A stretch of 64,000 nucleotides of DNA, taken from contig NZ_SSMX01000036.1 of the NCBI RefSeq assembly GCF_004799515.1, forward strand, positions 87,909-151,908, written 5' to 3'. The number at the start of each line of letters is the position of its first letter. The stretch's first letter is position 1. Both the position numbers and the translations under genes were made by a program. The notes under the pieces are model-generated. The model worked only from the letters and a program-made list of their open reading frames with translations. It had not been told where the DNA came from and did no database searches. This DNA comes from Phenylobacterium sp. (lineage in GTDB: Bacteria > Pseudomonadota > Alphaproteobacteria > Caulobacterales > Caulobacteraceae). Below, piece after piece: positions 211 to 55,606 of this stretch.

Positions 211-444
211 ATGACTGGCAAGACGTGGCTGAGGATCGTCGACGCTTCCGGATTGGACGGGAAAACCCTGCGCGCCCTGGTCCGCGCCGAACTGGCGGAG
301 ACCTACGTCCTGCGGCTGCGCAATGCCGCGCCCAGCGGCGAGGCCCTGGCGTTCTGGCGCGACGTCGGCGAGGCGGTCGGCGTCTCCGCGGATGTTGCGG
401 AGGATAGCGTGACGGGCGAGCTGAAACCCGCGCCGGGCGCCTGA
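211..444 (+). CDS. TauD/TfdA-type dioxygenase, N-terminal fragment (frame break)
   Basis: This is a 77-codon frame starting at ATG 211, chosen because GGAGGGG ends two bases upstream. It ends in a TGA whose last base is the first base of the ATG of the next frame. The sequence fits the N-terminal part of Fe(II)/2-oxoglutarate dioxygenases of the TauD family, including a segment ending in VTGELKPAPGA that precedes the iron-binding region in relatives. Together with the next frame it adds up to about 264 residues, a normal length for the family. It is therefore most likely one gene broken by a frameshift, biological or from sequencing, rather than a separate protein. Confidence 0.5.
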   Translation: MTGKTWLRIVDASGLDGKTLRALVRAELAETYVLRLRNAAPSGEALAFWRDVGEAVGVSADVAEDSVTGELKPAPGA

Positions 445-1004
445 TGGATGTGCGCTTCGAGCCGGACCGGCCCGACACCTACCGCCACCACAAGGTCGGC
501 CAGCCCCTGCACTCCGACGGCGCCTATGTGGCGCGCGCCCACTTCTGCGAGATCGCCCTGTTCTATCTCGAGCGCCAAGCGCGGACGGGCGGTGAAAGCC
601 TGTTCGTCGACGTTCCGGCCGTGGGCGCGCGGGCGCGCAGGTTGGCCCCGGCGCTCTATGAGGCCCTGACCACCTTGCCGGTGCGCTTCGGCAAGGCCGC
701 CGGCTCGGGCCACACCAGCACCATCCTGTTCGAGCAGGATGGCCGGCTGAAGATCAACTGGAACTACTTCCGCGTGCTGCCGGGCCAGGGCGCCGCGGTC
801 GACGCCCTGCGCGAAGACTTCCGGCAGTTCCTGGAGCGGATGATCGAGGACCGGGCGGTGGAGAGCTTCCGATTGGACGAGGGCGACGCCGTCTTCTTCC
901 GCGACGACCAGGTGCTGCACGGCCGGCGCGACTTCGCCGCCGAGCAGAGCGGCGACCGGCTGCTGTGGAAGACCTATTTCTCGCCGACCGCCCGGGCGGC
1001 CTAG
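444..1004 (+). CDS. TauD/TfdA family Fe(II)/2-oxoglutarate dioxygenase, catalytic part
   Basis: This 186-residue frame carries the catalytic core of a TauD/TfdA-like dioxygenase. The iron-binding H-x-D is visible in PLHSDGAYV (residue about 23), the distal His in QVLHGRRDF, and a 2-oxoglutarate-binding Arg plausibly in DRLLWKTYF. It lacks the usual N-terminal 70 or so residues, which sit in the preceding frame with a one-base overlap. The ATG at 444 has no Shine-Dalgarno of its own, so independent translation would need coupling. It is followed after one base by an aldo/keto-reductase-like gene, suggesting a small oxidative pathway; the substrate is unknown. Confidence 0.65.
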   Translation: MDVRFEPDRPDTYRHHKVGQPLHSDGAYVARAHFCEIALFYLERQARTGGESLFVDVPAVGARARRLAPALYEALTTLPVRFGKAAGSGHTSTILFEQDGRLKINWNYFRVLPGQGAAVDALREDFRQFLERMIEDRAVESFRLDEGDAVFFRDDQVLHGRRDFAAEQSGDRLLWKTYFSPTARAA

Positions 1005-1005
1005 G

Positions 1006-1836
1006 TTGCGCGTTCCGCGCCGGGCGTTCGGCGGCTGCGGCGTCGAGCTGAGCGCGCTGGCGCTGGGGACCATGCGGCTCATGCCGCCGAAATTCGACGC
1101 CGACAGCGCGATGGCCTTGCTCACGCACCTGTCCGACCACGGCGTGACCAGCTTCCATGTCTCGGCGGAGTACGACAGCCATCCGTTCGTCAGCGACGCC
1201 CTGGCGGCGCTGCGCCGTGCGCGGCCGTCAGCGCCGATCGAGATCATCGCCAAGCTCGCCGCGCCGCACTTCGACGAGGACGGCTTCTCCGCGCAACGCC
1301 TGCGCGAGCGCGTCGAGGCGTTGCTGCAAGGCCTGCCGGCCGAACGCGTCGACGTGGTGCAATGGATGGCGCGCCACACACCCAACGAGGACGCACCGCG
1401 CCTGGCGGTGCTGGAGCGGGACCGGGACCTGATCGGCGAGGCGGCTGGACGGCTGAAGGCGGAGGGCAGGATCGGCGCTTTCGCGGTCTTCCCTTACAGC
1501 GAGCCCTTCCGCCGCGCGGTCCTGGCCGAGCCGTTCGTCGACGGCCTTGTCGACTACCTGAACGCCGGCGAGCTGGAGGCGGCGGACTGGCTGGACCGGT
1601 TGCGGGCGCGCGGGCAGGGGTTCGTCGCCATGCGCCCGCTGTTCGCGGGACAGTTGGCCCGCGATCCAGGCGGCGTCGATGCGGCCCTCAGCTTTCCCCT
1701 GCTGCATCCGGCGACCGCCGCCATGGTGGTCGGCCTGTCCGACATCCGCCAGGCCGACCAGGCGATCGCCGCGGCGTCGGAGACCGGGGCCGATCCGAAC
1801 GCCTTCCGCGAGGCAGTCTCTAATATTATCGTTTGA
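1006..1836 (+). CDS. Aldo/keto-reductase-like protein
   Basis: The 276-residue product has the aldo/keto reductase barrel pattern: an N-terminal LALGTMRL strand, a GVTSFHVSAEY segment where the family has its Asp and Tyr, AKLAAP with the Lys, and a C-terminal MVVGLSDIRQADQAI that matches the usual cofactor-binding end. The family Asp appears replaced by His, and the family His after the fourth strand appears replaced in VVQWMARH, so activity may be altered. The start is TTG at 1006, one base after the dioxygenase stop, so the two are probably co-translated. The stop codon overlaps a TTGACA of the next promoter. The substrate cannot be inferred. Confidence 0.75.
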   Translation: MRVPRRAFGGCGVELSALALGTMRLMPPKFDADSAMALLTHLSDHGVTSFHVSAEYDSHPFVSDALAALRRARPSAPIEIIAKLAAPHFDEDGFSAQRLRERVEALLQGLPAERVDVVQWMARHTPNEDAPRLAVLERDRDLIGEAAGRLKAEGRIGAFAVFPYSEPFRRAVLAEPFVDGLVDYLNAGELEAADWLDRLRARGQGFVAMRPLFAGQLARDPGGVDAALSFPLLHPATAAMVVGLSDIRQADQAIAAASETGADPNAFREAVSNIIV

Positions 1837-1862
1837 CAGAAAGTATTTGATGCAAGACGTTA
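1833..1862 (+). promoter_or_regulatory. Candidate promoter for the DUF2975/XRE pair
   Basis: A perfect TTGACA lies at 1833-1838 in an unusually A/T-rich pocket (about 1820-1855). A weak -10 candidate such as ACGTTA follows at 1857-1862. A direct repeat TTTGA-N9-TTTGA spans the -35 and spacer and could be an operator for the downstream XRE protein. The -10 is poor, so this is tentative. Confidence 0.35.
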
Positions 1863-1886
1863 GGGCCATCCCTCAGGGAGACCGCC

Positions 1887-2480
1887 ATGGCGTCCATCGT
1901 CGACATCAGCCCGCCGCAGTCCGTCGCGCCTCCCAGCGTGCGCAAGATCCGCATCGCCAGTCGCGGTCTGGAATGGCTGTTCACGGGCCTACTCGCCGCC
2001 TTCATAACGCTGACCGCGGTCGGCTTCGGGGTGCTGTTCTTCTACCACGGCACGATGATCGCGTTCGGGCCGAAGGGTGGCGTCATCAGCACGGGACCGG
2101 TTCCCACCGGCTACCTCGCGCTGCGCGACTGGCGGTTCGACCAACGGCTCGCCTATGCACCCGTTTGGATCGCCAGGTCCTTCCCGACGATCGGGCTGTT
2201 CAGCTGCCTGCGGGGGCTTTTCCGGCTCTATGGCGACGCCGAGGTGTTCACGGAACGCACGGCGCGTCTGATCAGGTGGATGGGTATCTGGCTCGTCGCC
2301 GACGCGGTCGCGCCGCTGTTGTGCCACCTCGCGCTCAGCGCCACCGGCTACGAGATCGACAAGGCCTGGGCCCACATGACGAGCGTGCAGGAGGCGGTCC
2401 TGGGCGCCGTGGTCTTCGTCATCGCGCTCGTCATGCAGGCCGGCCACGAGATCGAGCAGGACCGCGAGGGATTCATCTGA
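1887..2480 (+). CDS. DUF2975 family integral membrane protein
   Basis: This 197-residue protein has about four hydrophobic segments, around residues 27-50, 90-105, 128-150 and 165-185. The layout fits the DUF2975 membrane family, which is typically encoded beside a very small XRE-type regulator. Here that partner follows with a one-base TGATG overlap. The function of the family is unknown; the constant pairing suggests the membrane protein modulates or is controlled by the regulator. The start is the ATG at 1887, preceded by a CAGGGAGA Shine-Dalgarno. Confidence 0.75.
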   Translation: MASIVDISPPQSVAPPSVRKIRIASRGLEWLFTGLLAAFITLTAVGFGVLFFYHGTMIAFGPKGGVISTGPVPTGYLALRDWRFDQRLAYAPVWIARSFPTIGLFSCLRGLFRLYGDAEVFTERTARLIRWMGIWLVADAVAPLLCHLALSATGYEIDKAWAHMTSVQEAVLGAVVFVIALVMQAGHEIEQDREGFI

Positions 2481-2716
2481 TGGCCATCGTGATCCGCCTC
2501 GATGTGATGATGGCCAGGCGCAAGGTGCGCTCCAACGTGCTGGCCCGCGCCATCGGCATCACCGAGGCCAACCTGTCGCTGCTGAAGTCCGGCAAGGTGA
2601 AGGGGCTGCGCTTCTCGACGCTCGAAGCGATCTGCCGGGCGCTGGACTGCCAGCCGGGCGACATCCTGGAATTCGTGCCGGACGAGGGCGTCGAGGCCTT
2701 CCGCCAGGCGAGCTGA
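2480..2716 (+). CDS. Small XRE/Cro-CI family transcriptional regulator (YozG-like)
   Basis: This 78-residue protein is little more than a helix-turn-helix domain: RRKVRSNVLARAIGITEAN, then LSLLKSGKVKGLRFSTLEAICRALDCQPGDILEF. That is the compact XRE_Cro fold of the YozG type. The ATG at 2480 overlaps the stop of the DUF2975 gene, so the two are translationally coupled. It probably autoregulates the pair, perhaps through the A/T-rich sequence near 1820-1862. The ORF track shows it only as the tail of a longer shadow frame starting at 1679. Confidence 0.85.
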   Translation: MAIVIRLDVMMARRKVRSNVLARAIGITEANLSLLKSGKVKGLRFSTLEAICRALDCQPGDILEFVPDEGVEAFRQAS

Positions 2717-2750
2717 TCCCACCCAAGGCTGACCAGATGGAGGAGGACCG

Positions 2751-3617
2751 ATGATCGGGCGAACGATGGCGCTTGCCTGCGGCTTGGCGCTGGCCCTGGC
2801 CGGCGCGGCGCGGGCGGAGATGGTCGATGTGGACGGCGGCCAGATCTACTACGAGACCTGCGGGCCCCAAGCTTCGGAGAAGGGCCCGCAGGCCATTGTC
2901 CTGATCCACGACGGGGTGATCAACTCCGCCAGCTTCGACGACATGTGGCCGATCCTCTGCAAGGACTTCCGCGTGGTCCGCTATGACCGGCGCGGCTACG
3001 GCAAGTCGCCGGCGGCCAAAGCGCCGTACGCGCCGCAGGAGGACCTGGCCGCGGTGATACGCGCGGCGAAGTTCGACCATGCGAGCCTGGTGGGCTTCTC
3101 CTTCGGCGGCGGTTTGGCGGTGAGCTATGCGATCCGGCATCCCGAACAGATCGACCGGCTCGTGATCTCCGGCGCTGCGCTCAACGGGTTCGAGCAGACC
3201 AAGCACTTCCGCGATCACATCACCCGCATCATGGCGCCGATGATCATCGGGAACTTCGACGCCGTGGTCGACAACGCCGCCAGGTCCGGCTGGGTCATGG
3301 CGCCAGGCCACGACGCAGCGAAGGCGGAGGCGTTGGCCATCCTGAAGGCCAGCCCGAAGGACCTGAGTCACCAGATGCGCGATCCCATCAAGGCCTGGCC
3401 GTCCGACCTGCCCCGCATGGGGGAGATCAAGGCGCCGACCCTGATCCTGATCGCCGACCACGACATCGCCGACAACCAGGCGGAATCCGGCGCGGCCCAG
3501 GCCCTGATCCCCGGCTCCCGGCGTATCGTCGTCGATGACGCCGGCCACCTGATGCAGCTGGAGCACCCCAAGGAGGTCGCTAAGCTGATCGCCGACTTCG
3601 TCCGCAAGGGTCGGTAG
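2751..3617 (+). CDS. Secreted alpha/beta hydrolase
   Basis: The 288-residue protein begins with a signal peptide (cleavage likely after ALAGAARA, around residue 23) and then a single alpha/beta-hydrolase domain. Visible landmarks are the oxyanion region IVLIHDGVINSA, the nucleophile elbow GFSFGGG with the catalytic Ser, an acidic residue in LILIADHDIADN, and the catalytic His in DDAGHLMQLEHP. GGAGGA lies just upstream of the ATG. The export signal suggests action in the periplasm. The substrate is unknown; esterase, lipase and haloperoxidase-type roles are all possible. Confidence 0.85.
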   Translation: MIGRTMALACGLALALAGAARAEMVDVDGGQIYYETCGPQASEKGPQAIVLIHDGVINSASFDDMWPILCKDFRVVRYDRRGYGKSPAAKAPYAPQEDLAAVIRAAKFDHASLVGFSFGGGLAVSYAIRHPEQIDRLVISGAALNGFEQTKHFRDHITRIMAPMIIGNFDAVVDNAARSGWVMAPGHDAAKAEALAILKASPKDLSHQMRDPIKAWPSDLPRMGEIKAPTLILIADHDIADNQAESGAAQALIPGSRRIVVDDAGHLMQLEHPKEVAKLIADFVRKGR

Positions 3618-3707
3618 TCAGCAGCGCTTGCCGAACGGCGGCGAGACGGCTTTCATGCCGGCGGCGAGATGTGCAACAGCGCGCCGCCGGGCAGGGAGGC
3701 CCATGCC

Positions 3708-6017
3708 GTGTCCGCCTATCGGGGCGTCCGCATCGCCGACTTCAGCCAGGGAACCGCCGGCCCGATGGCGGCGATGTTCCTGGGCGACTTCGAGGCCGAA
3801 GTGATCAAGGTCGAGCCAACCGGCGGTGAGCGGGGCCGCGATCATCCCGGCTATCACGCCTTCAACCGCAACAAGCGGGTCCTGACCCTGGACCTTGGGA
3901 CGCCCGCCGGCCTGGCCGCCGCCCGTGAGCTGATCGCCGGCGCCGACGTCGCCCTGTTCAGCGAGCCGCCGGGCCGCCTCGAAGCGTTGGGCCTCGATGC
4001 GACGAGCTTGCGGGCCGACCAGCCGGGCCTGATCCACGCCTGGATGCCGCCCTACGGCGTCACCGGCGCCTGGAGCCAGCTGCCGCCGCACCACAGCCTG
4101 CTGAGCGCGCTCTCCGGCGTCGCCTTCCGGCAGGGCGCCTACGGCGACCAGCCGATCCATCTGGTCCTGCCGCTGATCTGGTACGGGCAGGGCGTGCTGG
4201 GCGCCTCGGCCATCGGCGCGGCCCTCTTGGAGCGCCAACGCAGCGGCCAGGGCCAGGCGGTGGTGGTGAGCGGCCTCAACGCGCTTTCGGAGGTGTCCGG
4301 CCCGGTGCGGGTGCTGGCCGCGCCGCCCCTGCCGCGGGGCCAGCCGCTGGGCGCATCGCCCAGCTACCGGCTCTACCAGTGCGGCGACGGCCAGTGGTTC
4401 TTCCTGGGCTGTCTGTTCGCCAACTTCTATCTGAAGTGCTTCGAAGCGGTGGGCATCGCCGACCGCTGGGACGAGCTGGCGCTGGACCCCTTGCTTGCTC
4501 GCGACACCCTGATGAGCCTCTTCCGCGCGCGCCCGCGCACCGAGTGGCTGCAGGTGCTGCAGGACCACGGCGTGCCGTGCGCGCCGGTGGGGCCGCGCGA
4601 GGCCTGGTTCGCCGGCGAGGCGGTGGCCAATGGCGATTTGCGCACGACGCTCATTCATCCGAGGCTGGGTGATGTCGCCGTCCCCGCGCCGCCCGCGCGG
4701 CTCAGCGGGACCCCGGCCTCGATCCGCCATCTCGCCCAGCCCATCGCCGCGCCGCCCGCCTGGGCGTCGCGCCCCCCGCCGGCCGCGAGCGGGGAGGCTG
4801 AGGCCGCCGCGCCCCTGGACGGAATCCGCGTCCTCGACCTGGGCACGGTGATCGCCGGAGCCCATGCGGGCGGGGTGCTGGCCAATCTCGGCGCCGATGT
4901 CGTCAAGATCGAACCGGTGGAGGGCGATCCGTTCCGCTCCGACGGCGGCGGCTTCCTGGCCTACAACCGCGGCAAGCGGGGCCTGGGTCTCGACCTGAAG
5001 CAGCCGGCGGGCCGGGAGCTGTTCTACGATGTCGTGCGCCAGGCCGATGTGGTGCTGGACAACTACCGGTTCGGGGTGCGGGCGCGGCTGGGCATCGATT
5101 ATGCGACGCTGAAGGCCATCAATCCGCGCATCGTCTCCTGCTCGATCAACGCCTATGGCGACAAGGGCCCGCGCGCGGCCCTGCCGGGGTTCGATCCGCT
5201 GCTGCAGGCGGAGGGCGGCATGCAGCAGGGGCAGGGCGGAGACGACGAGCCGATCCTGCACACCATCCCGGTGAACGACGTGGCGACGGCGGCCGTGGTC
5301 TCCATGGCCGTGGTGGCGGCGTTGAACGCCCGGATGCGCACCGGCGAGGGCCAGGAGATCGTCACCAGCCTGATGGCCCAGAGCCTGACCTTCCAGTTGG
5401 CCGAGGTGGTCGACTACGCCGGACGGCCGCCCAACGATCTCGGCGGCCGCGACTGCCTGGGACCGCGGGCGCTGCACCGCTTCTACCAGTGCGCCGACGG
5501 TTGGCTGGCCCTGGTCTGCGATACGCCTGAAGCCGCCCGGGGCCTGGCCGGGGTGCTGGGTCTGGAGGTCGGCGACGCTCCGCTGGCCGCGCCTCGCGAT
5601 GGGCCGCTGGCCGGCGCGATCGCCCGCGCCCTGATCGTCCGCCCGCGCGACGCGGCGGTGCAGGCCTTGCTGGCCGCCGGCGTCGCCGCCGCGCCGGCCC
5701 TCCGCGCCGCCGAGGCCATGGAGAGCGACTGGCTGTGGGAGAACCGGGCGCTGGAGATCTGGCGCCACCCGCGGCTGGGCGACGTCTGTGGCGTGCGCAG
5801 CTACGCCGACTTTTCCCGCACGCCCGCCGGCTTCCGGCGGCCGACGCCGGACCTGGGCGAGCAGTCTTCGGCCATCCTGCGCGAGCTGGGCGTGGCCGAG
5901 GACCGCATCGCAGGCCTCCTGGCGACCGGGGCGATCTTCGAGCCGGTTCACATCGATCCCGCCCGCGCCAAGTCGGCCCGCGCCGGCAACGACAACGCTG
6001 CGCTTTCGGTGCAATAG
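3708..6017 (+). CDS. Tandem class III (CaiB/BaiF) CoA-transferase
   Basis: At about 769 residues this is roughly twice the length of a single CaiB/BaiF CoA-transferase, and it consists of two homologous halves. The N-half begins YRGVRIADFSQGTAGPMAA and the C-half begins LDGIRVLDLGTVIAGAHAGG (near residue 370). The C-half keeps the active-site Asp in LPGFDPLLQAEGGM; at the aligned site the N-half reads LPPHHSLLSALSGV, with His instead. Such enzymes move CoA between carboxylic acids in the cytoplasm. I place the start at GTG 3708 because AGGGAGG lies eight bases upstream; the track's ATG at 3669 would add 13 residues. The substrate is unknown. Confidence 0.85.
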   Translation: MSAYRGVRIADFSQGTAGPMAAMFLGDFEAEVIKVEPTGGERGRDHPGYHAFNRNKRVLTLDLGTPAGLAAARELIAGADVALFSEPPGRLEALGLDATSLRADQPGLIHAWMPPYGVTGAWSQLPPHHSLLSALSGVAFRQGAYGDQPIHLVLPLIWYGQGVLGASAIGAALLERQRSGQGQAVVVSGLNALSEVSGPVRVLAAPPLPRGQPLGASPSYRLYQCGDGQWFFLGCLFANFYLKCFEAVGIADRWDELALDPLLARDTLMSLFRARPRTEWLQVLQDHGVPCAPVGPREAWFAGEAVANGDLRTTLIHPRLGDVAVPAPPARLSGTPASIRHLAQPIAAPPAWASRPPPAASGEAEAAAPLDGIRVLDLGTVIAGAHAGGVLANLGADVVKIEPVEGDPFRSDGGGFLAYNRGKRGLGLDLKQPAGRELFYDVVRQADVVLDNYRFGVRARLGIDYATLKAINPRIVSCSINAYGDKGPRAALPGFDPLLQAEGGMQQGQGGDDEPILHTIPVNDVATAAVVSMAVVAALNARMRTGEGQEIVTSLMAQSLTFQLAEVVDYAGRPPNDLGGRDCLGPRALHRFYQCADGWLALVCDTPEAARGLAGVLGLEVGDAPLAAPRDGPLAGAIARALIVRPRDAAVQALLAAGVAAAPALRAAEAMESDWLWENRALEIWRHPRLGDVCGVRSYADFSRTPAGFRRPTPDLGEQSSAILRELGVAEDRIAGLLATGAIFEPVHIDPARAKSARAGNDNAALSVQ

Positions 6018-11630: not shown

Positions 11631-12007
11631 TCGTCGCCCTCCGAGGGCAGGGTCTCGCGATCGAACACCTTCTGCTGTTCCGGGGTGAGCAGGGCGTAGA
11701 AGGCCTTCACGGCCTCGCCCTGTTTGCGGAACGCCAGGTCGTCCTGCGCCATGGTCGCCTCGATCAGCGCGATGCGGCGCGGGGTCGGCACCATGGGCAG
11801 CAATTCCTCGGTCGCCCTGTGGCGCGCCTCGGTCTGCGGATCGGGAGCGATGGCGTTGGTGTAGTCGCGCCAGGCCGGCTCCTGGGTCTCGGTCAGATGC
11901 AGCTCATCGTGCAGCCGGATCAGATCGGCGTTCACCGCCTGTGCGGCCCGCGCCGCGCTGGCCGACATCGCCATGACTAGACAAAATCCAAGCATAATCC
12001 GACGCAT
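11618..12007 (-). CDS. Spy/CpxP-like periplasmic protein (LTxxQ motif)
   Basis: The 129-residue protein starts with a signal peptide (cleavage around MSASAARA) and contains LHLTETQEPAW and LLTPEQQKVFD, the two LTxxQ-like motifs of Spy/CpxP proteins. These are all-helical periplasmic chaperone-like or stress-sensing proteins. It is transcribed away from the hybrid histidine kinase at 12192, across a 184-base divergent region, so a shared envelope-stress link is possible but unproven. Confidence 0.75.
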   Translation of the reverse strand: MRRIMLGFCLVMAMSASAARAAQAVNADLIRLHDELHLTETQEPAWRDYTNAIAPDPQTEARHRATEELLPMVPTPRRIALIEATMAQDDLAFRKQGEAVKAFYALLTPEQQKVFDRETLPSEGDDPRR

Positions 12008-12191
12008 CTCGTAAAACCTTCACGTAAATCCCCCAAGCCGCACAATATTACATGGGGCCGCGCATCTGGGAATGCATCGCCGCCTCCACGCTCCGGGACC
12101 TGACGCCGCGGCCACGGAACCCAAGGTCCATTTCAGGCATTGCGTCTCAACGGCTTTCTGCGTGGCCGGCGGGCTGGATTGGGGGGATTCC

Positions 12192-14648
12192 TTGAGGGCG
12201 GGCGACGCATCTGGTCCGGACATCCCGCCAGGATTCCTGCGGAGCGGCGGCGAGATGGGCGCGCGCATCGCGGCCTATGACTGGTCCGGCTCCCTGGGCG
12301 CGATCGAGACCTGGCCCGGCAGCCTGAGGACCACCGTCGGCCTCCTGCTGCATTCGAGCGTCCCGATCGTTCTCCTGTGGGGCGAAGACGGGGTCATGAT
12401 CTACAACGACGCCTACTCGGTGTTCGCCGGCGGCCGGCACCCGGAACTCCTGGGCAGCAAGGTGCGCGAGGGCTGGCCGGAAGTAGCTGCGTTCAACGAC
12501 AACGTCATGCGGGTCGGCCTGGCCGGCGGGACCCTGGCCTACAAGGACCAGGTGCTGGTCCTCAACCGCACCGGCAAGGCCGAGCAGGCCTGGATGAACT
12601 TGGACTACTCGCCGGTCATCGACGAGACCGGCGCGCCAGGCGGAGTGATCGCCATCGTCGTCGAGACGACGGAGCGGGTGCCGGCCGAGCGCCGCCAGCT
12701 CGAGGCCACCGAGCGGCAGCGCCAACAGTTCGAACAGGCGCCCGGCTTCATCATCGTGATGGAGGGCCCCGAGCATGTGGTCGCCTTCGTCAACAACGCC
12801 CACCGCCGGGTGTTCGCCAGCGACGGCTGGGAGGGCATGACCATCCGGGAAGCCTTCCCCAGCATCGCGGACCAGGGCTTCTACGAGATCCTCGACCAGG
12901 TCTATGCGACGGGGGAAGCCGTCGAGTTCGAGGCGGCGGAGGTCCGCTACCGCCGCGTCCGCGATGGGCCGGAAGAGACGCGTCACCTGACCTTCGTCTA
13001 TGCCCCGATCCTCGACGTGACCGGCGTGGTCTCTGGCGTGTTCTGCGAGGGCTTCGACGTCACCGAGGCGCACAAGGCCAACGTGGCCTTGCGGGAGCTG
13101 AACACCGACCTTGAACGCAAGGTCGTCGAGAGGACCCAGGCCCGCGCCCTGACCTGGCAGGTGAGCCCCGACCTGATGGGCGCGCTGAACTCGCAAGGCT
13201 ATTTCGAGACCTCCAACCCCGCCTGGCAGACCATCCTCGGATGGAGCGAGGCTGAGGTGGCCAGCACGTCGATCTTCGAACTGCTGCACCCCGACGACCT
13301 GGAGCGCACCCGCGAGGGGTTCGCGCTGACCCAGATCGGCCAGCCGGCGATCCGCTTCCCGAACCGCTACCGCTGCAAGGACGGAAGCTACCGCTGGATC
13401 TCCTGGGTGGGCGTGCCGGAAGAGGGGATGGTCTACTGCACCGGCCGCGACATCACCGAGGAGAAGGCGGCGGAGGTTGAACTGGCCGCCGCCCAGGAAG
13501 CGTTGCGCCAGGCGCAGAAGATGGAGGCGGTGGGCCAGCTCACCGGCGGCCTGGCGCACGACTTCAACAACCTCCTGGCCGGCATCAGCGGCAGCCTGGA
13601 GATGCTGGAGAAGCGCATCGGCGAGGGGCGGCTGAGCGGCGCCGAACGCTACATCACCGCCGCGCAGTCGGGCGCGCGCCGGGCCGCGGCCCTGACCCAG
13701 CGCCTGCTGGCCTTCGCGCGCCGCCAGACGCTCGATCCCAAGCCCACCGACATCAACCGGCTGATCGGCGGCATGGAGGACCTGATCCGCCGCACCGTCG
13801 GCCCCACGGTGGAGCTGGAGGTGGTGGGCGCGGGCGGCCTCTGGATGACCCGGGTCGACGCCTCGCAGCTGGAAAGCTCGCTCTTGAACCTCTGCCTGAA
13901 CGGCCGCGACGCCATGGCCCCGGACGGCGGCCGGCTGACCATCGAGACCGCCAACAAGTGGCTGGACGAGCGCGCCGCCCGCGAGCGCGAATTGCCGCCC
14001 GGCCAGTACGTGTCGCTCTGCGTCACCGACACCGGCACGGGCATGGACGCCGAGACCATGGCGCGGGCCTTCGATCCCTTCTTCACCACCAAGCCGCTGG
14101 GGCAGGGCACGGGGCTTGGCCTCTCCATGACCTACGGCTTCGTGCGCCAGTCGGGCGGCCAGGTGCGGATCTATTCGGAGATCGGCAAGGGCACGACCAT
14201 GTGCCTCTACCTGCCGCGCTATGCCGGCGCGATGGACGAGGCTGACGAGAGCGAGCCCGCGGCCGCCGTGGATCGGGGCGACGGCGAGACCGTGCTGGTG
14301 ATCGACGACGAGCCCACGGTGCGGATGCTGATCGTCGAGGTGCTGGAAGAGAACGGCTATTCGGCCATCGAGGCGGCGGACGGGCCCTCGGGCCTGCGCG
14401 TCCTGCAGTCCGATGCGCGTATCGACCTCCTGATCAGCGATGTCGGCCTGCCCGGCGGCCTCAACGGCCGCCAGATCGCCGACGCGGCCCGCCAGACCCG
14501 GCCGAACCTCAAGGTGCTGTTCATCACCGGCTATGCGGAGAACGCCGCGGTCGGCAACGGCCACCTCGACGCCGGCATGGAGATCGTCACCAAGCCCTTC
14601 GCCATCGCCACCCTGGGCGCGAAGATCCGTGAACTGATCGACCGGTGA
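12192..14648 (+). CDS. PAS-domain hybrid histidine kinase with C-terminal receiver
   Basis: The protein is about 818 residues from TTG 12192, chosen because GGGGGG lies just upstream; the track's ATG at 12072 has no ribosome binding site. No membrane span is visible, so it is cytoplasmic. There are three PAS-like regions (about 40-155, 175-300, 330-430). A HisKA helix follows with the phospho-acceptor in LAHDFNNLLAG, then an ATPase domain with NLCLNGRDAM (N box), DTGTGMD and GQGTGLGLSM (G boxes), and a receiver with VLVIDDEP, the acceptor Asp in LLISDVGLPGG and the Lys in IVTKPFA. No response regulator gene adjoins it. The signal is unknown. Confidence 0.88.
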   Translation: MRAGDASGPDIPPGFLRSGGEMGARIAAYDWSGSLGAIETWPGSLRTTVGLLLHSSVPIVLLWGEDGVMIYNDAYSVFAGGRHPELLGSKVREGWPEVAAFNDNVMRVGLAGGTLAYKDQVLVLNRTGKAEQAWMNLDYSPVIDETGAPGGVIAIVVETTERVPAERRQLEATERQRQQFEQAPGFIIVMEGPEHVVAFVNNAHRRVFASDGWEGMTIREAFPSIADQGFYEILDQVYATGEAVEFEAAEVRYRRVRDGPEETRHLTFVYAPILDVTGVVSGVFCEGFDVTEAHKANVALRELNTDLERKVVERTQARALTWQVSPDLMGALNSQGYFETSNPAWQTILGWSEAEVASTSIFELLHPDDLERTREGFALTQIGQPAIRFPNRYRCKDGSYRWISWVGVPEEGMVYCTGRDITEEKAAEVELAAAQEALRQAQKMEAVGQLTGGLAHDFNNLLAGISGSLEMLEKRIGEGRLSGAERYITAAQSGARRAAALTQRLLAFARRQTLDPKPTDINRLIGGMEDLIRRTVGPTVELEVVGAGGLWMTRVDASQLESSLLNLCLNGRDAMAPDGGRLTIETANKWLDERAARERELPPGQYVSLCVTDTGTGMDAETMARAFDPFFTTKPLGQGTGLGLSMTYGFVRQSGGQVRIYSEIGKGTTMCLYLPRYAGAMDEADESEPAAAVDRGDGETVLVIDDEPTVRMLIVEVLEENGYSAIEAADGPSGLRVLQSDARIDLLISDVGLPGGLNGRQIADAARQTRPNLKVLFITGYAENAAVGNGHLDAGMEIVTKPFAIATLGAKIRELIDR

Positions 14649-53899: not shown

Positions 53900-55000
53900 C
53901 TAGCGGCCGACCGCGAACAGCTTGACCATCGGCCGGACGCCGGCGTCCGTGTCCTTGGCGTGGCCGAGGTAGCCGTCCACGCCGAACGCGTCCTCCAGGG
54001 TCCGCAGCAGCGAATAGTGGCTGTAGGGCGTTTCGTCCTTCACGCCGCGCGGGCCGTGGTTGGTGATCACCACGGTGGGGATATGGCCGCCGCCGTAGTT
54101 CGCGACCGAGCCCGGAACGATCCCGCAACAGCCGCCGACGCTGCCGCCGGAGCCTTCGTCGAAGGTGATGATGATCGCCATGTTCTGCTTGCTGGCCCAG
54201 GCGGGCGTGGCCTGCAGCCGGCGGACCAGCTCGCCGGTGTAGGCGTCGCCGCGGCGGATCAGCGACTTGTCCTGGTCGGTGTTCCCGTCGCAGTCGGCCG
54301 GCACGCCGTCGCCGTGCAGGCCATGCATCTCGTTGCACTGGTTGGGCACGATGAGGGCGAAGTTGGGCAGCTGGCCGCTGGCCAGGTCGCGGTCGAGCTG
54401 GTCGAAGCCCACGATCCGTTCGGCGCGATGCGGGTCGTCCTGCACGCTGGCGAAATTCATGAAGCCCGAGTGCTTGGAGGCGTAAAGCGACGCCGTGCGC
54501 ATCCCGTTGGCCGCCTTCGGGTCGCCGGCGATCACCGCGCCGGAGCCGGGCTCCGGCAGGTTCTCGTAATAGCCTTTCCAGGTCAGGCCGATCGCCAGAA
54601 GCTGGTCGCCCAGGTGCGGAACCTGCACCCGGTGAGTCGCATAGCCCGGCGCCTTGGCGCCGCCGCAGAACGGGCGCGTCGAGCCGGGATCGCAGTAATA
54701 GGCGTCGTCGTCGTGGATACCGAAGGTGTCGCCGCCCAGGAGGGCCACATAGTTGGCCTCGCTGGGATGCACCTCGGCGAAGAACTGGGCCGCGTCGCCG
54801 TACTTCACCGCCAGGCCCGCGATGTTGGGGGCCGACGCGGGGCTCATGATCTGGCCGTAGTCCTTGTTCTCCTCAAGGATCACGAAGACATGGTCATAGT
54901 GCGGGACGCCCTCGCGGCCGGCCGTCGGCGCGGCCGGAGCGGCGAGGGGAGACAGGACCAGTCCTGCGGCAACCGCCGCAACCGTAAAGAAACGCCGCAT
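53900..55000 (-). CDS. Secreted phosphoesterase (phospholipase C/acid phosphatase family)
   Basis: The 366-residue protein has a signal peptide (RRFFTVAAVAAGLVLSPLAA) and a PF04185-type phosphoesterase domain: DHVFVILEENKDYGQIM, HPSEANYVALLGGDTFGIHD, FALIVPNQCNEMHG, IITFDEGSG and VVITNHGPRG. These carry the metal and nucleophile sites of the phospholipase C/AcpA group. I start at ATG 55000 with GGGAGGG upstream. A PHO-box-like repeat lies 69 bases upstream, suggesting induction on phosphate starvation. Confidence 0.88.
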   Translation of the reverse strand: MRRFFTVAAVAAGLVLSPLAAPAAPTAGREGVPHYDHVFVILEENKDYGQIMSPASAPNIAGLAVKYGDAAQFFAEVHPSEANYVALLGGDTFGIHDDDAYYCDPGSTRPFCGGAKAPGYATHRVQVPHLGDQLLAIGLTWKGYYENLPEPGSGAVIAGDPKAANGMRTASLYASKHSGFMNFASVQDDPHRAERIVGFDQLDRDLASGQLPNFALIVPNQCNEMHGLHGDGVPADCDGNTDQDKSLIRRGDAYTGELVRRLQATPAWASKQNMAIIITFDEGSGGSVGGCCGIVPGSVANYGGGHIPTVVITNHGPRGVKDETPYSHYSLLRTLEDAFGVDGYLGHAKDTDAGVRPMVKLFAVGR

Positions 55001-55068
55001 CAGACTCTCGCCCTCCCGCTTTGGGGTCCACCTAGCAGACCGCATTCCGGGGCGTCTCGCGCCGTTTT

Positions 55069-55086
55069 ACGACAGCTCGGCGACAG
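55069..55086 (-). promoter_or_regulatory. PHO-box-like direct repeat (PhoB site)
   Basis: On the minus strand CTGTCGC-CGAG-CTGTCGT followed by AAAA matches the PhoB consensus of two CTGTCAT repeats with 11-base spacing, at 6 of 7 and 5 of 7 bases. It sits upstream of a phosphoesterase gene, a fitting target. No strong -10 is visible at the expected distance. Confidence 0.6.
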
Positions 55087-55214: not shown

Positions 55215-55606
55215 ATGATCAAGATCGTCTTTTGCCTTCGCCGGCTTCCGGAGCTCTCGCGAGAGGCATTCGCCCGCTATTGGCTGAGGAACACGGTCCC
55301 CTCGTCCGGAGATTGGCGGGCGACCTCATGATCCAGCGTTATGTCCAAAGTCATCTTCTGCAGGACGATCGCCTGACCCCTCTGATCCACGCGCGAAGCG
55401 CCGAGCCTGAGCCCTACGACGGCGTCGCCGAACTTTGGTGGCGTTCGTTGGGCGACATCTTCTCGGCCGCTCAGACGGAAAAGGGGCTCGCCGCCAGCCA
55501 GGCGCTCCTGGCCGACGAGCGCACCTTCATCGACTTGCCCCGCTCTCCGCTCTTCTTCGCCAACGAGCACGAGATTCTTTCAGACAAGGCTCGACCCGCC
55601 ATCTGA
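55215..55606 (+). pseudogene. EthD-domain protein, disrupted by a frameshift
   Basis: ATG 55215 opens a frame starting MIKIVFCLRRLPELSREAFA, typical of EthD-domain proteins. Near 55280-55290 the reading frame is lost; the family sequence continues in another frame (EEHGPLVRRLAGDLMIQRYV) to the stop at 55606. A one-base change restores about 130 residues. The track lists only the second part, from 55232. It is either a pseudogene or a sequencing error. EthD proteins are small dimeric alpha-beta barrels. Confidence 0.75.

Follow-up and report, generated by a model that had tools for sequence, protein, structure and literature searches.

The PHO box of the alphaproteobacteria, known from Sinorhizobium, Caulobacter and Rhizobium, consists of two heptamers in direct repeat (CTGTCAT-N4-CTGTCAT). 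A strict spacing has been reported for PhoB promoters (PMC10294691), and in S. meliloti about half of the PhoB boxes whose transcription starts have been mapped do not overlap the -35 element (PMC3616915). The PhoB regulon of Caulobacter crescentus includes TonB receptors and a phospholipase C (PMC11208175). The enzyme family PF04185 encompasses PlcN/PlcH, RePLC, the plant NPC enzymes and AcpA. The candidate site described here shares with the alphaproteobacterial boxes the 7-4-7 repeat, the strand and the distance to the gene, and it likewise precedes the gene for a predicted phosphate-scavenging enzyme in a genome that encodes PhoBR. It differs in having G in place of A at the sixth position of each half-site, in a spacer that lacks the terminal A or T, and in a poor match at the canonical -10 position.

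The window, meaning the whole stretch of DNA that was analyzed, covers 64,000 nucleotides of a Phenylobacterium sp. contig. The features of the locus, all on the minus strand, are as follows.

53900 to 55000, minus strand: PF04185 phosphoesterase gene (366 aa; predicted phospholipase C / acid phosphatase fold)
55011 to 55017, minus strand: GGGAGGG, Shine-Dalgarno-like, 10 nt ahead of the start codon
55053 to 55058, minus strand: GAGACG, found at the canonical +10 distance from the downstream heptamer
55064 to 55069, minus strand: TAAAAC, a -10-like hexamer overlapping the downstream heptamer
55068 to 55065, minus strand: AAAA tract after the downstream heptamer
55069 to 55075, minus strand: CTGTCGT, candidate downstream PHO heptamer
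55076 to 55079, minus strand: CGAG, 4-nt spacer
55080 to 55086, minus strand: CTGTCGC, candidate upstream PHO heptamer

Read 5' to 3' on the minus strand, positions 55086-55065 give CTGTCGC-CGAG-CTGTCGT-AAAA, with the two 7-nt direct repeats and 4-nt gap of a PHO box. The first-pass annotation had picked out the 11-base spacing, and the heptamers are indeed an exact direct repeat with an 11-bp period, the last base apart (CTGTCGC versus CTGTCGT). It had also placed the site 69 bases upstream of the gene; the upstream placement holds, and the gap from the site (55069-55086) to the ATG (55000-54998) is corrected to 68 nt. The candidate agrees with CTGTCAY-N4-CTGTCAY at 12 of 14 consensus bases, with two mismatches, and both half-sites have G at position 6, where A is usual. 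In pst boxes, G is seldom or never found at this position of the first half-site or at spacer position 4. The tenth base of the site is A, as in all 38 training sites, and the eleventh is G, found in none of the 38; the last spacer base is A or T in pst promoters and G in the candidate, and CGAG is not A/T-rich, a property that is a tendency rather than an absolute. Both CTGTCGC and CTGTCGT are ordinary half-sites in related genomes, chiefly at the proximal position, and CTGTCGT is also the proximal heptamer of the genome's own pstS promoter. Consensus scans for sigma-70 promoters and terminators between 53400 and 55700 gave no matches. At 55003-55007, 2 bp before the start codon, stands GACTC, a GANTC site of the kind that CcrM methylates in Caulobacter relatives.

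The gene product matches the PF04185 profile with an E-value of 6.6e-29 and 101.6 bits against a gathering score of 23. We place its start at the ATG at 55000, rather than at the 55045 ATG of the list of open reading frames, because GGGAGGG lies 10 nt upstream. The N-terminus, MRRFFTVAAVAAGLVLSPLAAPAAP, resembles a Sec signal peptide when judged by eye. Two more specific models fall far short of their curated cut-offs: TIGR03397 (acid_phos_Burk) scores 38.4 against 362.75, and TIGR03396 (PC_PLC) 13.4 against 580.25. A sequence search of the PDB with the phosphoesterase gave no match. The AlphaFold2 model (pLDDT 84) has as its top Foldseek matches in the PDB 8k3g, 9gy2, 9gye, 8haw and 2d1g, which are phospholipases C and AcpA, so that the predicted fold is that of the alkaline phosphatase superfamily as found in these enzymes. 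The likeness to the known members thus resides in a Pfam match far above cut-off and in the fold, whereas identity between the 366-aa enzyme and the solved structures is only 12-16%. In an alignment of 32 relatives E44-N45 and D281-E282 are invariant, and these residues agree with what we take to be the metal-binding positions of the family. The earlier assignment to the phospholipase C/acid phosphatase family is therefore borne out by profile and fold neighbors alike, and its label of a secreted phosphoesterase stands, with an export signal read by eye.

The genome encodes PhoB (362 bits against a curated cut-off of 296), PhoR, PhoU and Pst, with PHO boxes ahead of pstS, phoU and phoR. The pstS box reads GTGTCAC-caaa-CTGTCGT, and those of the phoB-phoU-phoR cluster GCGTCGT-caaa-GCGTCAT and CTGTCAC-cgat-CTGACAC. 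Elsewhere in the genome, ahead of a TonB-dependent receptor gene on contig C34 (L129, G000:C34:139000-147000, about 4440-4570, minus strand), six PHO-like heptamers follow one another in 11-bp steps (ATGTCAC CTGTCGG CAGTCAA CTGACGC GCATCAC CCGTCAC), followed by N10 and CATAGC.

A simple reading of the repeat is that drift in GC-rich intergenic DNA produced its heptamers, that PhoB does not act there, and that the gene is constitutive or otherwise controlled. The zero-mismatch string CTGTCR-N5-CTGTCR occurs only here, both in the window and in the 4,699,331-base genome, yet a model of independent bases at 70% GC predicts about 2.2 such strings per genome and about 0.03 per window. The match of the string proves little, because composition alone predicts about two per genome. 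Sites within three mismatches of CTGTCAY-N4-CTGTCAY number 10 in the window against 9.3 in shuffles. With near-matches at the shuffle level and the string barely beyond chance, a matrix built from real sites was therefore needed.

Such models were built from 26-27 pst promoters of related genomes, with the PHO boxes read ahead of the pst genes at the pstC loci of 36 related genomes. On a matrix for the repeat pair, the candidate scores 14.2, which lies under all training sites (17.3-29.7) and exceeds only the lowest leave-one-out score (12.6). Sites as strong occur about 15 times per Mb in the genome's own DNA, and another in the window falls inside a gene; when the sequence upstream of the gene is shuffled, 1 of 2000 rounds reaches the score. 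Alone, the pair-matrix evidence is weak. Unconstrained expectation maximization on the pst promoters ended on an array of three heptamers, lost the -10 signal and was rejected; an anchored promoter model (repeat pair, N10 and -10 hexamer; 26 pst promoters) was therefore made. On this promoter matrix the candidate scores 16.6, within the pst leave-one-out range of 10.7-29.2 and among the genome's own values of 22.7 for phoU, 14.1 for the C34 TonB receptor and 13.4 for phoR. When about 324 kb of the genome was scanned on both strands, only four positions reached at least 12 (16.6, 16.0, 13.2 and 12.3), and the candidate is the best. A PhoB weight-matrix scan, proposed in the first-pass annotation as a check, thus gives the candidate a score like those of real sites and ranks it first against this background. 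The second-best match, 16.0, is the promoter of the genome's second PF04185 copy on contig C19; nobody had selected this promoter for a site, so that it serves as an independent check. Of 5000 shuffled versions of the sequence upstream of the gene, only 3 score as high as the candidate on the promoter matrix. The candidate is therefore unusual at its spot, yet across the genome the string by itself lacks significance.

Two further loci can be described separately. The second enzyme copy (L134, G000:C19:85000-104999, 352-5401) stands with a TonB receptor gene (+), to which the PF04185 gene (-) lies tail to tail, and a divergent beta-propeller gene (+); its promoter reads GCGTCAT-ctat-TTGTAGA. 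In the window, a PHO-like ATCTCGT-AAAA-CCTTCAC at 12006-12039 (+), with a score of 12.3, lies shortly before a gene at 12072-14648 for an 858-aa PAS/histidine kinase/receiver protein.

Genome contigs yielded 52 related loci, and there were nine copies of the gene in the genus, the window copy included. For each transcription unit, the window excluded, the promoter of the leading gene was compared with other promoters of the same loci. Scores of at least 10 on the promoter matrix occur in 8 of 36 orthologue promoters against 4 of 127 controls (Fisher P=0.0007; rank test P 0.0004), P values that are optimistic as the orthologues are related and so not independent samples; control gene starts came from a crude GC-frame caller whose errors blur targets and controls alike. 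Over 200 rounds, shuffled orthologue regions give a mean of 0.48 and a maximum of 3 at this threshold, and the antisense strand gives 1. With the pair matrix, 10 of 37 orthologue promoters score at least 8 against 7 of 136 controls (9 of 36 against 7 of 127 after removal of a duplicate), and the enrichment does not hold at every cut-off (at least 10: 4/36 against 6/127, P 0.15). Simple consensus counting in the orthologue promoters gave no signal.

Among these promoters the exact repeat is conserved neither in sequence nor in position. A blastn search with the 225-bp promoter region yielded no homologous promoter that could be aligned, apart from a 14-mer, ACTGTCGCCGAGCT, that the region shares with L151 and L006. 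The comparison of orthologous promoters, also proposed earlier, thus finds enriched boxes without conservation of this particular repeat. Within the clade of the window gene (support 99/94), the two closest relatives differ: L003/L153 carries a modest box (9.0), and L121/L150 lacks one (-3.8). At several loci the enzyme gene follows a TonB-dependent receptor gene, alone or with a beta-propeller gene, and the boxes lie ahead of the receptor. In the 71%-identical L151 orthologue, CTGTCGC-CGAG-C is part of an array with 11-bp steps that precedes a TonB-receptor/phosphoesterase operon (CTGTCGC-cgag-CTTTGAA-caaa-CCGTCAC-gcaa-CCTGCAC), and at L148 the array ahead of the receptor reads GTGTCGC-gcag-CGGTGAG-aaaa-CCGTCAC-gcag-ATGGCAC. 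The genome's own C34 TonB receptor was considered as an orthologue of the operon's receptor, which it is not. The family as a whole thus tends to be preceded by PHO boxes, and single boxes come and go.

For an origin by chance speak the roughly two perfect strings expected per genome against the one seen, the weak half-sites, the G in the spacer, the missing canonical -10 and the closest relatives, which lack the exact repeat. It does not account well for the candidate's place at the head of the promoter-matrix ranking, with an unselected paralogue promoter second, nor for the rarity of the score in shuffles and the enrichment of boxes in orthologue promoters. We consider it unlikely, though of appreciable weight.

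A second alternative turns on the position of the -10 element. When pst promoters are aligned on the proximal heptamer, [TC]A stands exactly 10 bp past it in 22 of 27 cases and at 9 or 11 bp in none, against a background frequency of 6%. This sharp rule extends from genus to order across the pst promoters of 27 related genomes (L088-L117), and it can be used in regulon prediction. The candidate breaks it: the downstream heptamer is followed at this distance by GAGACG, without [TC]A. The sole -10-like hexamer at +10 distance is TAAAAC, counted from the upstream heptamer. PhoB may thus act in another register, in which CTGTCGC and TAAAAC form the promoter and the second repeat overlaps the -10, or else from a distance or at a repressor site. 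CTGTCGC-N10-TAAAAC obeys the +10 rule, the -10 of the genome's own phoU promoter (CATAGG) overlaps a third heptamer just as TAAAAC overlaps the candidate's downstream heptamer, and the S. meliloti boxes lacking -35 overlap offer a precedent for other modes. Against the shifted register, its promoter-matrix score is only 0.5 and the partner upstream, TAGGGTG, is no half-site, and we regard this alternative as quite unlikely. Its probability partly overlaps with that of the preferred reading, because it is still PhoB regulation, a variant rather than an exclusive rival.

A role of the site at the divergent EthD-domain gene (start near 55216) instead of the phosphoesterase gene is highly improbable, for although the two genes have the intergenic region in common, the direct repeat is oriented toward the phosphoesterase, the opposite strand scores at background (0.4) and the assembly has an interrupted EthD frame. 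The EthD gene at 55216-55606 (+) is apparently frameshifted: MIKIVFCLRRLPELSREAF... is read in one frame and, from about 55290, the EthD body in a second, which appears to be an assembly error or a pseudogene; a search of its neighborhood gave nothing useful.

We conclude that 55069-55086 is probably a weak PHO box and that the phosphoesterase gene is probably under PhoB control. The first-pass reading as a PhoB site gains from the matrix score and the orthologue enrichment, and loses in that the repeat is unconserved and the -10 is misplaced for a canonical PhoB promoter. The sequence evidence thus carries the reading as far as probable. In the proposed mechanism, low external phosphate would lead PhoR to phosphorylate PhoB, and PhoB~P would bind the two tandem 7-bp half-sites. 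The bound protein would recruit RNA polymerase with the housekeeping sigma factor and the phosphoesterase gene would be transcribed. The enzyme, if secreted as its N-terminus suggests, may then free phosphate from phospholipids or other phosphate esters.

Such a box is expected biology, because the regulon of Caulobacter crescentus has both TonB receptors and a phospholipase C, and the candidate resembles the usual members of a known regulon. An unlikely extension is that the enzyme is the survivor of a PhoB-controlled TonB-receptor/phosphoesterase(/beta-propeller) module that would scavenge a specific phosphorylated compound, the window copy standing without a receptor gene and retaining a PHO array of shared ancestry (CTGTCGC-CGAG-C, compare L151). 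Taken singly, the site represents textbook regulation, and through it the Pho regulon of a genus that has received little study gains a probable member. More broadly, the loci indicate a recurrent module of receptor and phosphoesterase with PHO boxes, and this module may be involved in the uptake of a particular organic phosphorus source.
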